NCBI RefSeq assembly: GCF_000023845.1
Contig: NC_013170.1
Span: forward strand, 1,156,501 to 1,220,500
From: Cryptobacterium curtum DSM 15641
GTDB taxonomy: Bacteria > Actinomycetota > Coriobacteriia > Coriobacteriales > Eggerthellaceae
DNA length: 64,000 bases
Reading direction: 5' to 3'
Shown here: one piece after another, positions 1,502-64,000 of the stretch
Layout of the letters: every line of letters starts with the position of its first letter
Position numbering within the stretch: position 1 is the stretch's first letter
The notes under the pieces: model-generated
What the model was told of the DNA's origin: nothing
What the model saw: the letters and a program-made list of their open reading frames with translations, nothing else
The model's database searches: none
Program-made: the position numbers and the translations under genes

Positions 1502-2320
1502 ATGCCTGACGAGATGCCGAGCGAATCGCCTAAAAGCAAAAGCCGCACGCTCTCGAAGGATAAGATCTTCTCGATGGCACTTGCTCTTGTAGACGAAGAG
1601 GGTCTGTCTTCCCTTTCCCTTCGAACTCTGGGAAAACGATTAGGTGTTTCTCAAACTGCCTTTTATCGGCACGTGCCTGATAAATCAGCACTGCTCGAAG
1701 GGGTTTCTGAAAAGGTCTGGGAACTCGCCCTCGAGCACTTTCTTTCAGATATTTCGCAGGAAACGCAGGTATCAAGCCGCGCTTCACAATATACACCAGC
1801 ATCAGGCCACGTTTCACAAGACACACCGGCGTTGATTCACTCTTCGCAGGATGCATCGGCATCGAATCACACTTCACAAGACACATCAGCAGCGCATCAA
1901 GCCGACTGGAAAAGCTACCTTCGCATCTATGCGCGAACGCTTCATGCCACACTTCTTGAGCATCCCAACGCTATCATACTGGTGCTCACGCACCCCATTT
2001 CAACCCCCGGCCAGCTCTCTCTTATTGCTCGCGTTTTAGCAGATCTTTCAAAGACTGGCTTCACCGCACCCTTAGACATGCTCGGGATTATAACTGCTAT
2101 CACAGTATACACAACAGGTTTCGCTGCTTCAGAAGCCGCGCCGCCTGCGGGTGATACCCCTGATGAAGCCACTGGTGAACTATCTCGCGCAATGGAGTCC
2201 CTCCCAGCGGATGAACTGGCCTCACTCAGCATGCTCATTGGCGATGTGATGGATGGCAAATGGGACTTCAGTGCCCAATTTGAACGCGGACTCAATGCTA
2301 TTCTCAAAGGCTGGGAATAA
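1502..2320 (+). CDS. TetR-family regulator with five 10-residue tandem repeats
   Basis: This is a 272-residue transcriptional regulator. The N-terminal helix-turn-helix spans about residues 20-65 (LRTLGKRLGVSQTAFYRHV), and the C-terminal part from about residue 135 resembles the TetR_C effector domain. Between them, residues 85-134 are five units of 10 residues, each beginning SQ (SQETQVSSRA, SQYTPASGHV, SQDTPALIHS, SQDASASNHT, SQDTSAAHQA). This insert is not part of the family fold and lies where the DNA-binding and effector domains join. The gene follows the ABC genes by 16 bases, so it probably controls that operon. Confidence 0.87.
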   Translation: MPDEMPSESPKSKSRTLSKDKIFSMALALVDEEGLSSLSLRTLGKRLGVSQTAFYRHVPDKSALLEGVSEKVWELALEHFLSDISQETQVSSRASQYTPASGHVSQDTPALIHSSQDASASNHTSQDTSAAHQADWKSYLRIYARTLHATLLEHPNAIILVLTHPISTPGQLSLIARVLADLSKTGFTAPLDMLGIITAITVYTTGFAASEAAPPAGDTPDEATGELSRAMESLPADELASLSMLIGDVMDGKWDFSAQFERGLNAILKGWE

Positions 2321-10989: not shown

Positions 10990-12000
10990 ATGTCTTCGCT
11001 ATCGATACGACAGAGCGCAACAAGTTGGAAGACTGCCACCCGAAAGCATGCCGATGTATCCATATTAAAGCGTCAGTCCACTGCAAAATGTCAGACCACA
11101 TCACCGTGTCAGCCTGAACTAAAGCGCGAGCCTATACCACCGTGCCAGCCAACACCAGAACACAGGCCTATGTCAAAGTGTCAACCCGTACCAACAGACA
11201 GACATGTATCAAAGCACCAATCTGCATTAAAACGCTCGGTCACATCAAGGCGTCAGAGCATACGGCTTGGTCTAGTTTTCACTTCGTTTTTGCTCTTCCC
11301 CGCTACGATCTTTTATTTTTCTCCCTACCTGTCCGTTCTTGGACCTTTCCAAGGAATTCTCCCTGGAAGCCTCGTCGCATTTGGCACGCTGTTTCTGCTT
11401 TCATTCTTTTTGCGTCGCGGCTTTTGCGGATGGCTTTGCCCAACAGGAGGTCTCCAAGAAATGGTGGCCACGATACAGCCAAAACTTAGCAAACTGGGGT
11501 GGCGCTGCGCGATTAAATTCGTAATATGGGTGCCATGGATATGCGCTATAGCCGCTGGTGCTGTGGTTGCAGGAGGAATCCATACTGTCGACTTAGCATT
11601 TAAAACCGAGCACGGCCTTTCAGTAGCAAGCATTCACGATCTGCTTATTTACCTGGGAATTGTTGCTCTGTTCTTCGTAATAGACCTCATCGTGGGACGC
11701 CGCGGTGCATGTCACTACATCTGCTGGATTGCGCCATTCATGATTATTGGTGAAACAATCGGACGCCTGTTGCACCTTCCGCAACTTCACGTACACGGTG
11801 TTTCTAACACCTGCGTACATTGTGGAGCGTGCGAGCGGGCATGCCCCATGAGCCTACCGGTCTCTACGTTAGCTGCTGGTGAAGCAGCTATTGACAGCAC
11901 GGAATGCATCCAGTGTGCCGCATGCTGTGACGCCTGTCGACACAATGCACTTGCGATAGGGTTTGGGCCTATTCGCAAAAAAGACTTCATTATGCGATAA
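10990..12000 (+). CDS. NapH-like polyferredoxin membrane protein with 12-residue repeats
   Basis: This 336-residue membrane iron-sulfur protein resembles NapH/CcoG-like quinol-side electron carriers. Four to five membrane helices follow residue 90, with Cys pairs between them (FCGWLCP and CHYIC). Two 4Fe-4S clusters are at the C-terminus (CVHCGACERACP and CIQCAACCDAC). The N-terminus is unusual: residues 27-86 are five 12-residue units (KRQSTAKCQTTS, PCQPELKREPIP, PCQPTPEHRPMS, KCQPVPTDRHVS, KHQSALKRSVTS), rich in Cys, Pro and basic residues. I chose the ATG at 10990, just after the TetR stop; ribosome binding is weak, so coupling is likely. The redox partner is not evident. Confidence 0.8.
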   Translation: MSSLSIRQSATSWKTATRKHADVSILKRQSTAKCQTTSPCQPELKREPIPPCQPTPEHRPMSKCQPVPTDRHVSKHQSALKRSVTSRRQSIRLGLVFTSFLLFPATIFYFSPYLSVLGPFQGILPGSLVAFGTLFLLSFFLRRGFCGWLCPTGGLQEMVATIQPKLSKLGWRCAIKFVIWVPWICAIAAGAVVAGGIHTVDLAFKTEHGLSVASIHDLLIYLGIVALFFVIDLIVGRRGACHYICWIAPFMIIGETIGRLLHLPQLHVHGVSNTCVHCGACERACPMSLPVSTLAAGEAAIDSTECIQCAACCDACRHNALAIGFGPIRKKDFIMR

Positions 12001-55583: not shown

Positions 55584-56231
55584 TCAGTCAGCAAGGGATG
55601 CACGATAATAACGCACCGCTATCTGTGTGCGGTTCTTAAGGCCCAGTTTGGCAAGGATCGTACTGATGTGATTGCGCACTGTTCCTTCGCTCATATAAAG
55701 CGTCTGTGCCACTTCAGCATTATCGAGGCCCTCTGCAACTGCTTCAACCACTTCGTATTCACGATCGGTTAATACAGAAAATGTTTCGGCACGCAGGCGG
55801 TCGGCCGAAAAGTCCTCAACAGATCGACTAAAGGCGCCGGTTCGCTCAAGAATGTCACCTTCTAAAACGCTCATTCCTGCCATAGCGCTACGCAAAGCTG
55901 GGGCAATCTGGGCGATATCTTGCTTAATTAGATAGCCACGCGCACCCATTTTGAGCGCTCGCACAAGATATTCATCGTCCGAAAACGTCGTCAAATAAAC
56001 GATGCGAGCATTCGGATGGGTCTTAAGTATCACTTCTCCCGCAGAAAGCCCATCGCCAGCAGGCATCTGGATATCCATGAGAAGAATATCGGGGTTCAGC
56101 TGGCTGTAAAGGGTAACTGCCGCAGGACCGCAATCCGCCTGTCCAACCACCTCGATATCCCCTTCGGCTGAAAGAATAGCAGCCAGAGACCGCACAACAA
56201 TGGGATCGTCATCGACGATGATTACCCTCAT
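55584..56231 (-). CDS. NarL/FixJ-family response regulator
   Basis: This 215-residue regulator has a receiver domain with phospho-Asp in LLMDIQMPAGDG near residue 55 and a LuxR-type helix-turn-helix at the C-terminus (LTDREYEVVEAVAEGLDN, then VRNHISTILAKLGLKNR). Its ATG overlaps the kinase stop. The divergent ABC exporter and the palindromes at 57608-57655 are its likely target. Confidence 0.93.
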   Translation of the reverse strand: MRVIIVDDDPIVVRSLAAILSAEGDIEVVGQADCGPAAVTLYSQLNPDILLMDIQMPAGDGLSAGEVILKTHPNARIVYLTTFSDDEYLVRALKMGARGYLIKQDIAQIAPALRSAMAGMSVLEGDILERTGAFSRSVEDFSADRLRAETFSVLTDREYEVVEAVAEGLDNAEVAQTLYMSEGTVRNHISTILAKLGLKNRTQIAVRYYRASLAD

Positions 56232-57595
56232 GAGACCTCCTTGGGAAAGGTAGCAAACACAGTGAATCGCGGAGTTTTAAGAAAGTCTATCATGCCCCCA
56301 AGCGATTCAACCCGATCCTGCATCGACCGTAAACCTAAGCCTCTTTCTTGATCGAGAAGATGGGTAAGCGAACTTTCACCTGTTTCACCGCTCGTTTCAT
56401 CGCCCGATGGTAGCGTGCCATCGTTTTCTACCGTAAGACGCCAGAAGGAAGGATACTCGACAACTGTCACCCATGCACGCTGCGCCTGCCCATGCTTTGC
56501 TGCATTCGTAAGCGCTTCCTTTGCCACCGCTACAATGCATCGAGAAACAGCAGGTGGCACTGCGTCATCAAGCGTGCAGTTCACACGAACATCGCTAACG
56601 CCGCAATGCAACGCAACCGCATTGAGCGCCGTTGGCATGTCCTCCCCTTCATCAGAAAGGGCATGTACGCTTTTGCGCATCGAATCGAGCGCGGTATTCA
56701 AAGTGGCCTCTATTTCAGCGAGCTCCTTATCGAGTGCCACACCGAGAGGCGCATTTAGTGGCACTACCTCAGAAGAACCATTCGGCACTCCGTGAGGGGA
56801 ATTATCCAGTGCTGTGTTGGAAGAACCATTCAGTACCCTATTAGAGGACGTATCCGACACCGCGTTAGAAAAGCCATCCACCGCTACCTGAGAAGAGCTA
56901 TCAGGCACCTCGCTGGAAGGGCCGTCAAATGAATAACCAGAAGTACAGGATATACGCAGGGCTTTCACTTGAAAGATGAGCCGTGTCAGTAGATGTCCAA
57001 CGTTATCGTGAATATCTCGCGCAATGCGGGCACGTTCCGAAAGAGTTGCCGCGCGAATTTGAGCATCCTGAGCCTCATGAAAACGCGCATTGGCCCTTTT
57101 CAGCTTGAGCATTTCCTGCTGCAATCCATCTCGCAACGCATGGGATTGTTTAACTGCCTGGTGAACCTGAGCACTGCGAACTCCCAGCAATAAAGCAGAA
57201 AGGCAGATAACGGCACTCACTAAAACAAGCACCCTACCTGCCTCGTGCGCCGACAGCACAATAAACGCTCCGAAAAACGGAAGGCTGCAGACAACTGGCA
57301 ACAACACCCAGCTGCGAGAACGAAGAACACCCTGGCGTGCCAAATCGTACACAACAAGCGGCAACCCAACAAACGACCACGGCATGCCAAAAAAGCTTGC
57401 GCAGACATACGCGATGGGCGCAACCCATGCAAACGAATTCGTCCGAAAAATGATGCAGGATGCGCTTATCAGAATGGCGGCAAGCAGCCATGCCACTAAA
57501 ACAGCATCGACTGTGACAGCATCAACCATGCTCCCAATAAGGGCAGACGCAACACAGAGGCAAATCAATAGCCCTTTATCCACAAGCTCATTCAT
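56228..57595 (-). CDS. NarL-type sensor histidine kinase with eight 8-residue repeats
   Basis: This 455-residue kinase has about five membrane helices in the first 140 residues with a short coiled coil after them. The HisKA_3 phospho-His lies in RIARDIHDNVGHLL near residue 197, and the ATPase domain follows (VAKEALTNAAKHG; GLGLRSMQDR). The region between dimerisation helices holds eight exact 8-residue units (56926 to 56735), from DGPSSEVP through DSSSQVAV and DGFSNAVS to LNAPLGVA. Related kinases have no such insert. Confidence 0.92.
   Translation of the reverse strand: MNELVDKGLLICLCVASALIGSMVDAVTVDAVLVAWLLAAILISASCIIFRTNSFAWVAPIAYVCASFFGMPWSFVGLPLVVYDLARQGVLRSRSWVLLPVVCSLPFFGAFIVLSAHEAGRVLVLVSAVICLSALLLGVRSAQVHQAVKQSHALRDGLQQEMLKLKRANARFHEAQDAQIRAATLSERARIARDIHDNVGHLLTRLIFQVKALRISCTSGYSFDGPSSEVPDSSSQVAVDGFSNAVSDTSSNRVLNGSSNTALDNSPHGVPNGSSEVVPLNAPLGVALDKELAEIEATLNTALDSMRKSVHALSDEGEDMPTALNAVALHCGVSDVRVNCTLDDAVPPAVSRCIVAVAKEALTNAAKHGQAQRAWVTVVEYPSFWRLTVENDGTLPSGDETSGETGESSLTHLLDQERGLGLRSMQDRVESLGGMIDFLKTPRFTVFATFPKEVS
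56735..56926 (-). repeat. Eight 24-base tandem units inside the kinase gene
   Basis: The units are 24 bases (8 codons) and all in frame: DGPSSEVP, DSSSQVAV, DGFSNAVS, DTSSNRVL, NGSSNTAL, DNSPHGVP, NGSSEVVP, LNAPLGVA. The first residue is Asp or Asn in seven of eight units and the Ser-rich core is kept, although the DNA copies have diverged. Confidence 0.85.
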
Positions 57596-57721: not shown

Positions 57722-58672
57722 ATGACCGACGAAGCAGTTGCCGTATCGGGACTGGTGAAGCGCTACAAGGAAACGGTAGCGGTCGATGGACTGTCATTCA
57801 AAATAGCCCAAGGAGAAATATTTGGCCTACTTGGACCAAACGGCTCAGGTAAAACGACCACTATCAATTGTATCCTCCAGCTGCTTTCCTACGATAAAGG
57901 TACTATCAACGTTTTTGGCAAGCCGATGAGCGCCACTGCGTACGACTTGAAACGACGTATCGGCATCGTGCCACAGGAAGTAGCCGTTTTTAACGAACTT
58001 TCCGTACGTGAAAACATCGATGCATTCTGCGCTCTATACGTTGCCGATAAAAACCAGCGACGTGAACTTGTGGATGAGGCAATTGCATTCGTAGGGCTTG
58101 AAAAGTTTTCGAAGTTCCGCCCAAAAAAACTGTCTGGCGGACTCGTACGCCGCCTGAATATTGCCTGCGGTATCGCTCATAAACCTGACTTGATTATCAT
58201 GGACGAGCCAACCGTAGCAGTTGATCCACAGAGCCGTAACGCCATACTCGACGGCATCGAACACCTCAACGCACAGGGCGCTACCATCATCTATACCAGC
58301 CACTACATGGAAGAGGTCGAGCAACTCTGCCATCGCATTATGATTATGGATCGCGGACGCGAGATTGCCAGTGGAACTGCCGAAGAATTAAAGGCCCTCG
58401 TTGGTCTGGGAGAACGCATCAGTGTCGAAGTACGCGATGGGGTAGATGAAGCACTGCTTGAAGCGCTCCGTCGCCTCCCTCATGTACGAACAGTTTCCTA
58501 CACGGCAGGCCGTCTGCTGGTGGACTGCACCGCTGGCGCTCACAATCTTACTGATGTAATCAGCTGTCTCGCCGAGCGAAAGATAGCCTACGGTGGTCTT
58601 TCCTCTGAGCCACCAACGTTAAACGACGTATTTCTGGAAATCACTGGACGCGCCTTACGTGATGAGGTGTAG
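57722..58672 (+). CDS. ABC-2 exporter ATPase
   Basis: This 316-residue ATPase has Walker A GPNGSGKTT near residue 38, the Q-loop IVPQEV, signature LSGGLVRRLN, Walker B IIMDEPTVAVD and switch His TSHYMEE. The C-terminal extension is of the CcmA/DrrA type. GGAGAG precedes the ATG. It forms an operon with two permease genes and is divergent from a NarL-type two-component system, a common arrangement for envelope-stress exporters. Confidence 0.95.
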   Translation: MTDEAVAVSGLVKRYKETVAVDGLSFKIAQGEIFGLLGPNGSGKTTTINCILQLLSYDKGTINVFGKPMSATAYDLKRRIGIVPQEVAVFNELSVRENIDAFCALYVADKNQRRELVDEAIAFVGLEKFSKFRPKKLSGGLVRRLNIACGIAHKPDLIIMDEPTVAVDPQSRNAILDGIEHLNAQGATIIYTSHYMEEVEQLCHRIMIMDRGREIASGTAEELKALVGLGERISVEVRDGVDEALLEALRRLPHVRTVSYTAGRLLVDCTAGAHNLTDVISCLAERKIAYGGLSSEPPTLNDVFLEITGRALRDEV

Positions 58673-58675
58673 GCG

Positions 58676-59830
58676 ATGTATACACTCTTCAAATATCAGG
58701 TGATACGACTCTTCCGCGATAAGATGGTCCTCATCTGGGCATTTATATTTCCTGTTATTCTTTCACTGCTGTTTATGGCCATGTTTTCGGGTCTTGCGAA
58801 CTCTTATGCTGCTCACGCTATCGACTTCGGTGTTGTAGCAGATTCCGCTTATGACAAAGCACCTGGCCTCAGTACGCTCGTCGAAAAAATTTCAGATGCT
58901 CATGGCGAAAACCATCTTATTAACGCCACTTCGTTTACTTCTGCACAAGAAGCTGAAGAAGCGGTTCAAGAAGGTTCCATTTCGGGATATCTCGATGTGG
59001 AAGAGGGCAATCCCACCATTCATGTCACTCCTTCACTTTCAGAAACAGAGCAGACAGCTATTCCTATTATCAAGGCTGTTATAACGTCGTATATCCAAAC
59101 GCGCGACCAGGCTGAATCCCTTGCTAAAAATGGTAAACTCGATGCTCAAGCACTAGCACAACTGCAAACTCCCCATATCTCAACAGAGCGAGAGCAAATT
59201 ACACAAGCACCAAGCGACCCACAAGTGCGTTATTACTTTTCGCTTCTGGCATTTGCCTGCGGCATGGGCGTTATGGTTTCGCTAGCTGCCACACAAGATG
59301 CCATGCCCGACGCTTCAGAACTCGGGGCGCGTCGAGCAATGGCCGGTGTTCCCCGTTGGCGTGTACTGGCAAGTATATTTATGGGTTCGTGGCTCTGCAC
59401 CTTAGTCTGCTTACTTGTCGCCTTCTACTTTATACGAATCGTCGTAGGAATTAATTTCGGAGAACACGTAGAACTCTGTCATATCGCCATTGCCGCAGCA
59501 AGCTTTATGTCCTGTGCAGCTGGCATGGCTCTTGGAACTTTCAAACGTATAACAGGCGGTATTGTCAGCGGCATTATCACTCTGCTGTCGCTATTCACCG
59601 GCCTGTATGGCAGTGCAGCCATGAGTTTTGCAAGTACCTTTGAACAAAATTTCCCCTTGCTTGCTTCCTTAAATCCCCTGTGGCAAACAGCGCACGGCTT
59701 TTACAGTCTGCTGTATTACGACACACTCGATCCGTTCTTTCAAAATTGTACAGCGATCCTGATAATGGCTGCCGTATTCTTCACCGTCGCCTTAATTCGT
59801 ATGAGGAGAATGAGCTATGCACGTCTTTAG
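58676..59830 (+). CDS. ABC-2 type permease
   Basis: This 384-residue membrane subunit has an N-terminal helix, a large outside domain (about residues 45-190) and five C-terminal helices. It starts three bases after the ATPase gene and overlaps the next permease gene by 14 bases. It is likely to form a heterodimeric channel with that permease. Confidence 0.9.
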   Translation: MYTLFKYQVIRLFRDKMVLIWAFIFPVILSLLFMAMFSGLANSYAAHAIDFGVVADSAYDKAPGLSTLVEKISDAHGENHLINATSFTSAQEAEEAVQEGSISGYLDVEEGNPTIHVTPSLSETEQTAIPIIKAVITSYIQTRDQAESLAKNGKLDAQALAQLQTPHISTEREQITQAPSDPQVRYYFSLLAFACGMGVMVSLAATQDAMPDASELGARRAMAGVPRWRVLASIFMGSWLCTLVCLLVAFYFIRIVVGINFGEHVELCHIAIAAASFMSCAAGMALGTFKRITGGIVSGIITLLSLFTGLYGSAAMSFASTFEQNFPLLASLNPLWQTAHGFYSLLYYDTLDPFFQNCTAILIMAAVFFTVALIRMRRMSYARL

Positions 59831-60998
59831 AACCGCGCTTAAGATTGTTGCAGCGCATCGACTTTACATCTTAATCTATCTGGTGCTTATGAGTATGTTT
59901 GGCCTGTTTACCGGACAGCCATCAACAGGCGCCACTGATCAAAACACCAATAGTGCACCCACGGTAGCCGTAATTGATCGCGATGGGAGCACAATTTCAC
60001 ACGGTGTAACTACCTACCTTGAATCAGTCGGCACGATTCAGACAGTGGCTGATACAAAACGAGCACTGCAGGATGCTACCGCGCAAGGTACCATCCAATA
60101 CATCCTGATTATTCCGCAAGGATATGGCAGCGCCTTGGAACAGGCGGCCACGAGCGGCGAGAATGCTCCAGCGCTTGAGACTATCGTGAGCTATAAATCA
60201 GCTGAAGGTTCGCTTATGGATGCACGTACCGAAGCGTATCTCAATCAGATTTATAACCAGATAGCTATCGCCCAGTCTTCCCCCGCTGAAGCAGTCGCTT
60301 CTGCACAAGAGACCATGGCACAGGCTGCTGAGGTGAAATCTATCGAACAGGACACTACCCCGCTGCCGAATAATCTTATTATTTTCTTGCGCTTCTCAAT
60401 CTATCCGATATTCGCTTTCAGTGTTATTGCGATATCTGTGTTTATGACCGCCCTCAATCGGCGAGAAGTGGCAGGGCGACTGCGGGCAACATCACTTACT
60501 GGATTTTCACGCGGCACCCAAGTGTTTTTTGCCTGCCTTGCCGTTGGGATAATCGGTTGGGCCTGGATAACTGCTGTAGGTTTCGGCTACTTCCAAAACG
60601 ACATAGCAGCACAGGCATTGCCACTATTCGCTGTTGCTGCCGCAGCCTTACTTGCCTATGCGATTACCTCGGCATCGATTGGTTTTCTTTTGGGACAGCT
60701 CGGACTTGATGAACGTATAGCTAATGCCATCGCAAACATCTTCGGCATGGTGCTTTCTTTCTTAGCTGGCGCTTGGGTACCGGTAGAATATCTGCCCGAT
60801 GCAGTAGTGGCCGTATCTCACTTCACACCAGGATACTGGGTAAGCCAAGCTATTGGCGGCACGCAGTACGTAACGTCTATATCCTTTGAAGCGCTCTCGC
60901 CACTATTCGCCGATTGCGGTATATGCCTTCTGTTTGCTGCAGCTCTTTTCGCTGTTGGATTGGCAGTAGGGCGCACAAAGGCAAGCTCAGCGGTTTAA
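59817..60998 (+). CDS. ABC-2 type permease, second subunit
   Basis: This 393-residue membrane subunit has the same layout as its neighbour: one helix at the N-terminus, an outside domain of about 150 residues, and a C-terminal group of about five helices. The ATG overlaps the previous gene. Two different permeases with one ATPase indicate a heteromeric exporter. Confidence 0.9.
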   Translation: MHVFRTALKIVAAHRLYILIYLVLMSMFGLFTGQPSTGATDQNTNSAPTVAVIDRDGSTISHGVTTYLESVGTIQTVADTKRALQDATAQGTIQYILIIPQGYGSALEQAATSGENAPALETIVSYKSAEGSLMDARTEAYLNQIYNQIAIAQSSPAEAVASAQETMAQAAEVKSIEQDTTPLPNNLIIFLRFSIYPIFAFSVIAISVFMTALNRREVAGRLRATSLTGFSRGTQVFFACLAVGIIGWAWITAVGFGYFQNDIAAQALPLFAVAAAALLAYAITSASIGFLLGQLGLDERIANAIANIFGMVLSFLAGAWVPVEYLPDAVVAVSHFTPGYWVSQAIGGTQYVTSISFEALSPLFADCGICLLFAAALFAVGLAVGRTKASSAV

Positions 60999-62204: not shown

Positions 62205-64000
62205 TTATTCTGTGTCGAGGCTCATCTGCAGTAGATGCACATTTTTACGCAGTTCACGCGCAACGTTATCAGTGATCTTGCCCTCGTTGCGCAGGTGTCT
62301 GATCTCGTCAAGTTCAATATCGAGCACATAGGCATCAACCTGGTCGGCATACTTACGCGCTTGGCCAAACTGCTCAGCGAATGACGTACCCCCTACCTCA
62401 GCAGGTTGGTCACCTGTAGAATCATTCAGCATGTCGGAAACGAGCGTTTGCCGTTGGCTGATGCGACTTTCAAGCGACTCAATCGCCGCACGATGTTCGT
62501 TGATAAGCACCCGAGCCGCCGCAGCACGCGTATTGTTCTGTGCTCCTGCTGCCGTATCTGCTGGTGATTCTATTTCTGTTATCGTATCTGTCTGCACTTC
62601 CGCTTTTTCTTGCGCATCTAGCTGCAATGTTGAGCCGCCTCTCGAATCGGACCCCACTTCTACAGCCGTTTTCGCATCCGCCCTCACTTCTGCTTTTAAA
62701 TTGCCCGATGCCAATGAAGAAGAAGCGATAACCTCTTCCAGATAATCAATCGCAGCTTGTTCAAGTTCAATCGCATACAAACAGGCAATGTAGTACAGCT
62801 GCTCATCGGAGCTATTCATCTCTTCGCCATAATGTTGACGACGACGCGCCGCGATTCCCAAGAGACCAATGATGACATGGACACGCGATCCCACCCGTGC
62901 ACTCTGGGTATAGCCAATCGAGCGCCGAATACCATTGAACATGGCTTGATACGTAGTGCGCTCTTTAAAGCTCAGCGACGAATCCTCCTTGATGGAAGAC
63001 TCCAGTTCATTCATCATGGCGCGCTGCTTTTCGTGCACTTCGTCGTTGAGTTCTCGCAGCGCCGCTCCGCACTGATCGAGTTCCATGCGTTCGCGCACTA
63101 ACCGCGTACGATAGCGCATGATGGTCAAGCGCAAGGCGGGCGTGTATTCAGAATCCGCGTGCTCAACCTGCCAACTGCGCAACTTTTGAATCGTTCGTTC
63201 CAAAACCTCTATTGTTGCGCGCCGCAGGGCACGGTCATCGTCTGCCGCAGCGTCGTCATCCTTTGGAATCAGACGCGGTAAAGTGGTATCAGCAAGCAGC
63301 AGCGTCAGCAAAATAACGCCGGCAGCCAAAAAGATCAGAAAGTCGCGCGCAGGAAACAGCACTCCATTATCAAGCGTGTAGGGAATAGTAAAAATAATGG
63401 AGAGCGTAACGGCACCCTTAGGTCCCGCTATGGTCATCACCAGCGCGTTTTTTAAGGCGTTGCGAATATGTGTTATACCGCGTTCGCCGGTTTCTTCGTC
63501 GCGATGAATAAGCTCCATTGCTGCAATCCACAGAAAACGGCAGAGCACAACAAGGAAAGTGATACCAACAACAAGTCCTACCAGTTCAAAGAAGGAAAAA
63601 TCGCCGTTAAGTGTAGGGGATACCGCCTGCGGCAGCTGCATACCCAGCATCACGAAAATCACGCCGTTGATTAGAAAGACAATGACTTCCCAAAAGCTAT
63701 TCGACACCATGCTTTGTCGCGCCAAATCAGTTGAGACAAGGCGCGGTGAACGATCGCTCATAACAAGCCCTGCAGCCACCACTGCCAAGATGCCGCTGAC
63801 ATCAAGCGCTTCAGCCAGCAAAAACACAATAAACGGTGTGAATACTTCGTAAAGCACATGAACCGTTGTGTTCTCAACACCACTCCGTCGCAGAATTCGC
63901 GACGTAGCGGTTGCTATAAACCCGAAGAGAAGTCCCGCCACAATACCGCCAACGAACAACACTAAAAAGGTTCCACCGGCTTCGCTTGCTGAAAAAGCAC
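62205..64000 (-). CDS. Na+/H+ antiporter, NhaP/CPA1 type (N-terminus outside window)
   Basis: This cation/proton antiporter runs off the right edge. At least 598 residues are visible, with six or more membrane helices, including TPFIVFLLAEALDVSGILAV-type and AGPKGAVTLSIIFTIPY segments of the CPA1 family. The cytoplasmic C-terminal half is long and helical, with a low-complexity Ala/Glu/Thr section (about 62520-62720, AEVRADAKTAVEVG and AEVQTDTITEIES as diverged copies). The frame is open through position 64000, so the start is not in the window. Confidence 0.9.
   Translation of the reverse strand, partial: AFSASEAGGTFLVLFVGGIVAGLLFGFIATATSRILRRSGVENTTVHVLYEVFTPFIVFLLAEALDVSGILAVVAAGLVMSDRSPRLVSTDLARQSMVSNSFWEVIVFLINGVIFVMLGMQLPQAVSPTLNGDFSFFELVGLVVGITFLVVLCRFLWIAAMELIHRDEETGERGITHIRNALKNALVMTIAGPKGAVTLSIIFTIPYTLDNGVLFPARDFLIFLAAGVILLTLLLADTTLPRLIPKDDDAAADDDRALRRATIEVLERTIQKLRSWQVEHADSEYTPALRLTIMRYRTRLVRERMELDQCGAALRELNDEVHEKQRAMMNELESSIKEDSSLSFKERTTYQAMFNGIRRSIGYTQSARVGSRVHVIIGLLGIAARRRQHYGEEMNSSDEQLYYIACLYAIELEQAAIDYLEEVIASSSLASGNLKAEVRADAKTAVEVGSDSRGGSTLQLDAQEKAEVQTDTITEIESPADTAAGAQNNTRAAAARVLINEHRAAIESLESRISQRQTLVSDMLNDSTGDQPAEVGGTSFAEQFGQARKYADQVDAYVLDIELDEIRHLRNEGKITDNVARELRKNVHLLQMSLDTE

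Follow-up and report, generated by a model that had tools for sequence, protein, structure and literature searches.

The window analyzed here is a 64,000-nucleotide stretch of the genome of Cryptobacterium curtum DSM 15641, a single contig of 1,617,804 bases. This strain is the type strain of a member of the Eggerthellaceae from the mouth (PMC3035227). The features considered are listed in Table 1. They center on a sensor histidine kinase whose stop codon overlaps the start codon of the response regulator gene by four bases, and whose dimerization and phosphotransfer (DHp) domain is interrupted by an array of short tandem units.

Table 1. Kinase locus of C. curtum: positions in the window and basis of each assignment
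Feature	Position	Strand	Basis
Sensor histidine kinase, 455 aa (N-terminal membrane helices, long helix, HisKA_3 DHp, HATPase_c)	56228..57595	-	Pfam and helix pattern of the model
Array of eight degenerate 24-bp units (8 aa each), residues 224-287	56735..56926	-	Autocorrelation against codon shuffles; excess DNA similarity
DHp helix 1 with phosphoacceptor His196 and the D197-x-x-x-H201 motif	56954..57037	-	Invariant columns and Pfam
DHp helix 2, residues 284-316 in the model (homologues align from about 290)	56648..56746	-	Alignments and model
HATPase_c catalytic domain with conserved N-/G-box residues E360, N364, G419, G421	56240..56533	-	Pfam and invariant columns
Cognate response regulator, receiver and GerE/LuxR-type HTH	55584..56231	-	Pfam PF00072 and PF00196; ORF list
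ABC transporter ATPase, divergent from the kinase	57722..58672	+	Pfam ABC_tran
Two ABC-2 type permease genes	58676-59830 and 59817-60998	+	First: Pfam ABC2_membrane_3; both lie beside homologues

A preliminary description of this DNA assigned the gene to the NarL-type sensor kinases, and the domain content agrees with it: the protein matches HisKA_3 (PF07730, E 7e-11, 42.9 bits against a cut-off of 24, residues 187-214) and HATPase_c (PF02518, residues 355-452) and adjoins a receiver/GerE regulator. The HisKA_3 match covers only positions 1-28 of the 68 in the profile and ends just ahead of the insert; it is partial because the insert interrupts the domain. In the homologue alignment the helix 1 columns E187, R188, R190, I191, A192, R193, I195, H196, D197, V199, G200, and H201 are invariant, so that the phosphoacceptor is followed by the D-x-x-x-Q/H pattern of this family, and the four N-box and G-box residues are invariant as well. 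In its helix 1 His-Asp-x-x-x-His/Gln motif, HATPase_c domain, adjoining regulator, and ABC exporter genes the locus resembles those of other HisKA_3 (NarL/DesK-type) kinases. The array-bearing kinase very likely still autophosphorylates and would signal to the overlapping regulator and the divergent ABC exporter.

Homologues were collected by searches of 60 relatives, 138 family genomes, and genome contigs, and 122 of them could be aligned. On the contigs a single-protein query returned no relatives, and an alignment-based query returned 80 loci. The kinase-regulator-ABC neighborhood is common to most of these 80 named loci, and therefore the comparison is between loci of the same kind. The alignments place the array in the hairpin joining DHp helices 1 and 2, which in the homologues is almost always about nine residues long. 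The stretch between the helices (query residues 216-289) measures 6-11 residues in 121 of the 122 homologues and 22 in the remaining one, whereas it reaches 74 in C. curtum, which sets this protein apart from the other HisKA_3 kinases; the excess of 65 residues equals 8 x 8 + 1. In none of the 122 is the place of the array taken by a non-repetitive conserved domain, the outcome that the preliminary description had named as contrary to its reading. Its placing of the repeat in the dimerization/phosphotransfer region is thereby made more precise: the segment is a lineage-specific insert in the hairpin loop of that region and is absent from all 122 homologues. By these alignments, in which the genus is represented by one genome, the array is a gain private to C. 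curtum within the DHp hairpin, rather than a conserved domain. Two of the homologous kinases, L018 (G039) and L021 (G008), have private inserts of their own, tens of residues long, which lie in the catalytic half and outside the DHp hairpin.

The array consists of eight units of eight residues without any indel: DGPSSEVP, DSSSQVAV, DGFSNAVS, DTSSNRVL, NGSSNTAL, DNSPHGVP, NGSSEVVP, and LNAPLGVA. The first position is Asp or Asn in seven of them, the eighth unit being weak with Leu there, and conservation is highest at the Asp/Asn and Ser positions. The proposed number and length of the units and their coordinates were right, and the period stands far above shuffled controls. The word "exact" applied to these repeats is correct for the unit length only, since the sequences are degenerate, with a mean pairwise nucleotide identity of 0.51. 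At the protein level the periodicity differs from codon shuffles with P about 1e-4. In the DNA, the self-match values for shifts of 24, 48, and 96 are 0.53, 0.61, and 0.51, whereas codon shuffles average 0.27 for a shift of 24. Not one shuffle out of 20,000 equaled the observed self-match at any period of 9-45 nt.

The similarity between units (0.58) also exceeds that obtained by random synonymous recoding of the same peptide (0.43; z 6.0). Therefore the units share DNA ancestry beyond the protein pattern and arose by duplication. Tandem Repeats Finder and an exact-seed repeat search over the array reported nothing, because the units are too diverged. The last unit shares 13 of 24 bases with the 24 bases that follow it in the adjacent helix 2 DNA. 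This hints that the array was seeded from that DNA, but it is one among many such comparisons and we make no claim of it. The GC and GC3 contents of the insert match those of the remainder of the kinase gene, which counts against a foreign origin. Assembly can collapse or expand repeats; yet units of about 51% identity would not mislead an assembler, the reading frame is intact across the array, and the genome was finished with Sanger and 454 reads (PMC3035227), so we give an assembly or sequencing artefact a negligible probability.

An AlphaFold2 model of the kinase, built with 49 sequences, contains helices at residues 118-218 and 284-316 and a confident catalytic domain, with pLDDT below 50 and no secondary structure for nearly all of residues 226-277. 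The model supports the array being a long Ser/Asp/Asn-rich disordered loop between intact helices, in line with the earlier guess that the repeat forms a loop, which is borne out at the level of prediction. That all units are equally long and that the signal at 48 bases exceeds the one at 24 could also suit a folded repeat domain, such as a solenoid or beta-roll with turns of 8 or 16 residues. Such a fold is most improbable: the units number just eight and are short, polar, and weakly conserved, they match no Pfam repeat, and pLDDT is about 39-47 over most of the same residues, although AlphaFold2 is weak for orphan inserts.

The 1.6 Mb of the C. curtum genome (1279 ORFs) was scanned for in-frame periodicity at a threshold of z 7. 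Depending on the background value, 41-52 ORFs exceeded it, compared with 2-3 after codon shuffling, and 39 were left once choline-binding repeats and arrays without DNA-level support had been removed. These 39 arrays have periods of 12-48 bases and unit identities of 0.46-0.62, and they sit at termini, between domains, or within domains. Many of their hosts are intracellular proteins, among them a thymidylate kinase, a UvrD-type helicase, a Mur ligase, RelA/SpoT, and a TetR regulator. The apparent strongest repeat of the genome, at 1.0275-1.0325 Mb, was discarded as a masked run of N.

In the control relative G008 arrays were found in 4 of 642 genes, against 39 of 1279 in C. curtum (Fisher P 4e-4). 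A mixed control of related named loci gave 13 of 603, a share almost as high as in C. curtum, computed with one fixed background value despite differing genome composition. The excess in C. curtum is real against G008, and uncertain in general. Among 365 orthologue pairs of the two genomes, internal inserts of at least 20 aa number 68 in C. curtum and 55 in G008, and none of those in C. curtum is longer than the one in the kinase. Terminal extensions number 108 and 39, respectively, an excess partly inflated by longest-ORF start calls. The kinase array is one of about 39 old, private, in-frame arrays in C. curtum genes; we make no claim of uniqueness for C. curtum in this respect.

Several other arrays were observed. 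A TetR-family regulator has a degenerate Ser/Gln-rich array with a 30-base period between its HTH and C-terminal domains (window 1751-1918, + strand), and a 4Fe-4S membrane protein has a Cys/Pro/Gln-rich one with an 18-base period and a CQPxxx pattern ahead of its Fer4 domains (window 11059-11226, + strand). A 30-base-period array occupies residues 609-664 of an ORF judged by eye to resemble sodium/proton antiporters (window about 62526-62693, - strand); it has DNA-level support of z 7.9, and the alignment with the G008 relative ends at residue 473. In the CobA-HemD fusion (L205 3567-5420, - strand) a Gln/Asp-rich insert with an 18-base period lies inside the methylase domain at residues about 124-172, a region skipped in the matches of eight relatives; its DNA-level support is borderline (z 1.9).

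Near-identical, that is, young, unit copies were not seen among the C. curtum in-frame arrays, and it looks as if array formation in this genome stopped long ago. The kinase loop could then be the most striking product of a genome-wide episode in which dozens of short segments, each with its own period, would have been tandemly duplicated in frame at permissive points of housekeeping and signaling proteins inside the cell before the process ceased and left degenerate arrays alone, and the loop may alter signaling; we regard this broader scenario as doubtful.

Rickettsia palindromic elements are in-frame inserts in protein genes. The C. curtum arrays resemble them in that they too are private, keep the frame, and occupy permissive sites in housekeeping proteins. 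They differ in that the kinase insert has no dispersed copies or inverted repeats and in that period and sequence are specific to each locus. A mobile or dispersed element of this kind could be thought to have entered the kinase gene, since many genes of both C. curtum and G008 hold private in-frame inserts and G008 has dispersed 15-mers with up to 21 occurrences. This origin is nevertheless very unlikely. The sole match of the kinase insert in a protein-level search of the C. curtum genome is the insert itself, inverted repeats were not found at the array site, each C. curtum array has a period and sequence of its own, and the top 15-mers of the genome are simple repeats only. The lack of another genomic copy and of inverted repeats at the site led us to reject a dispersed element for the kinase array. 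As a separate observation, G008 (L215-L254) contains the dispersed repeats AAGTCTGACATGTTT, with 21 occurrences on both strands in 800 kb, and GGTGCCAGCCATAAA, with 19. Translated (FQNMSDL/FKNHVRL-like), the G008 repeat is found within private inserts of several proteins and recalls in-frame palindromic elements.

Alternatively, the loop may have a function and be under selection as a Ser-rich disordered arm, tuning the kinase for example through the choice of cis or trans protomer, restricted access of the regulator, or serine modification. It lies exactly in the DHp hairpin, and Ashenberg, Keating and Laub 2013, as described in PMC8199190, report that this loop sets helix handedness and cis or trans autophosphorylation. 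The same hairpin is altered in the C. curtum kinase, and by analogy it is possible that the loop tunes cis or trans phosphorylation; the cases described there, however, are connecting-loop differences, whereas the C. curtum loop is an inserted 64-residue tandem array. The array has also stayed open and in frame while its units diverged to about 51% identity, with Asp/Asn and Ser best preserved.

On the other side, pooled unit pairs give pS 0.60, pN 0.45, and pN/pS 0.74, and the ratio expected from neutral star-tree simulations at equal divergence is 0.92 +/- 0.17. The observed ratio is matched or undercut in 14% of these runs (P about 0.14), in a test of limited power given units of only 24 bp. 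The divergence of the units is compatible with neutral decay and not distinguishable from it. Weak selection for the polar pattern may exist, as the point estimate is below 1 and Asp or Asn comes first in seven of eight units. Of the two possibilities raised previously, that the repeat is old or that it is kept at the protein level, the first stands and the second is not supported by this ratio. Moreover, the insert is present in none of the 122 homologues, and similar arrays occur in unrelated C. curtum proteins, which suggests general tolerance rather than a kinase-specific device. We therefore consider a selected functional arm unlikely.

We think it likely that the array is an old in-frame minisatellite expansion that diverged nearly neutrally and was tolerated at a permissive surface hairpin of a still functional kinase, any effect on signaling being secondary. 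In the C. curtum lineage, in-frame tandem duplication, presumably by replication slippage or unequal recombination, would have multiplied a 24-bp segment in the short hairpin between helices 1 and 2 until eight copies were present, and the copies would then have diverged by point mutation at a near-neutral rate. The array would stay in frame because the kinase is needed, and not the repeat sequence itself. The loop would be tolerated because the hairpin is probably solvent-exposed; judging from the orientation in known DHp structures, it would emerge from the four-helix bundle at the end distal to the upstream membrane helices.

The array shares with bacterial coding minisatellites and VNTRs a tandem, in-frame arrangement whose period is divisible by three. 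It differs from them in the low identity of its units and in lying within a conserved signaling domain, not in a surface protein. In view of this high degeneracy, its length is probably no longer variable. A search of open-licence papers on Cryptobacterium tandem repeats and on repeat inserts in HisKA_3 kinases, which provides weak evidence, found no description of this array.

The kinase array is a genuine species-private oddity, though it probably amounts to tolerated padding and not to a new device. With its catalytic motifs intact and a predicted disordered insert of 64 residues in its DHp hairpin, this natural kinase offers a ready test of how much the hairpin tolerates. More generally, about 39 C. 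curtum genes, many of which are conserved, carry an old in-frame array, and this bears on the origin of new disordered segments in bacterial proteins.
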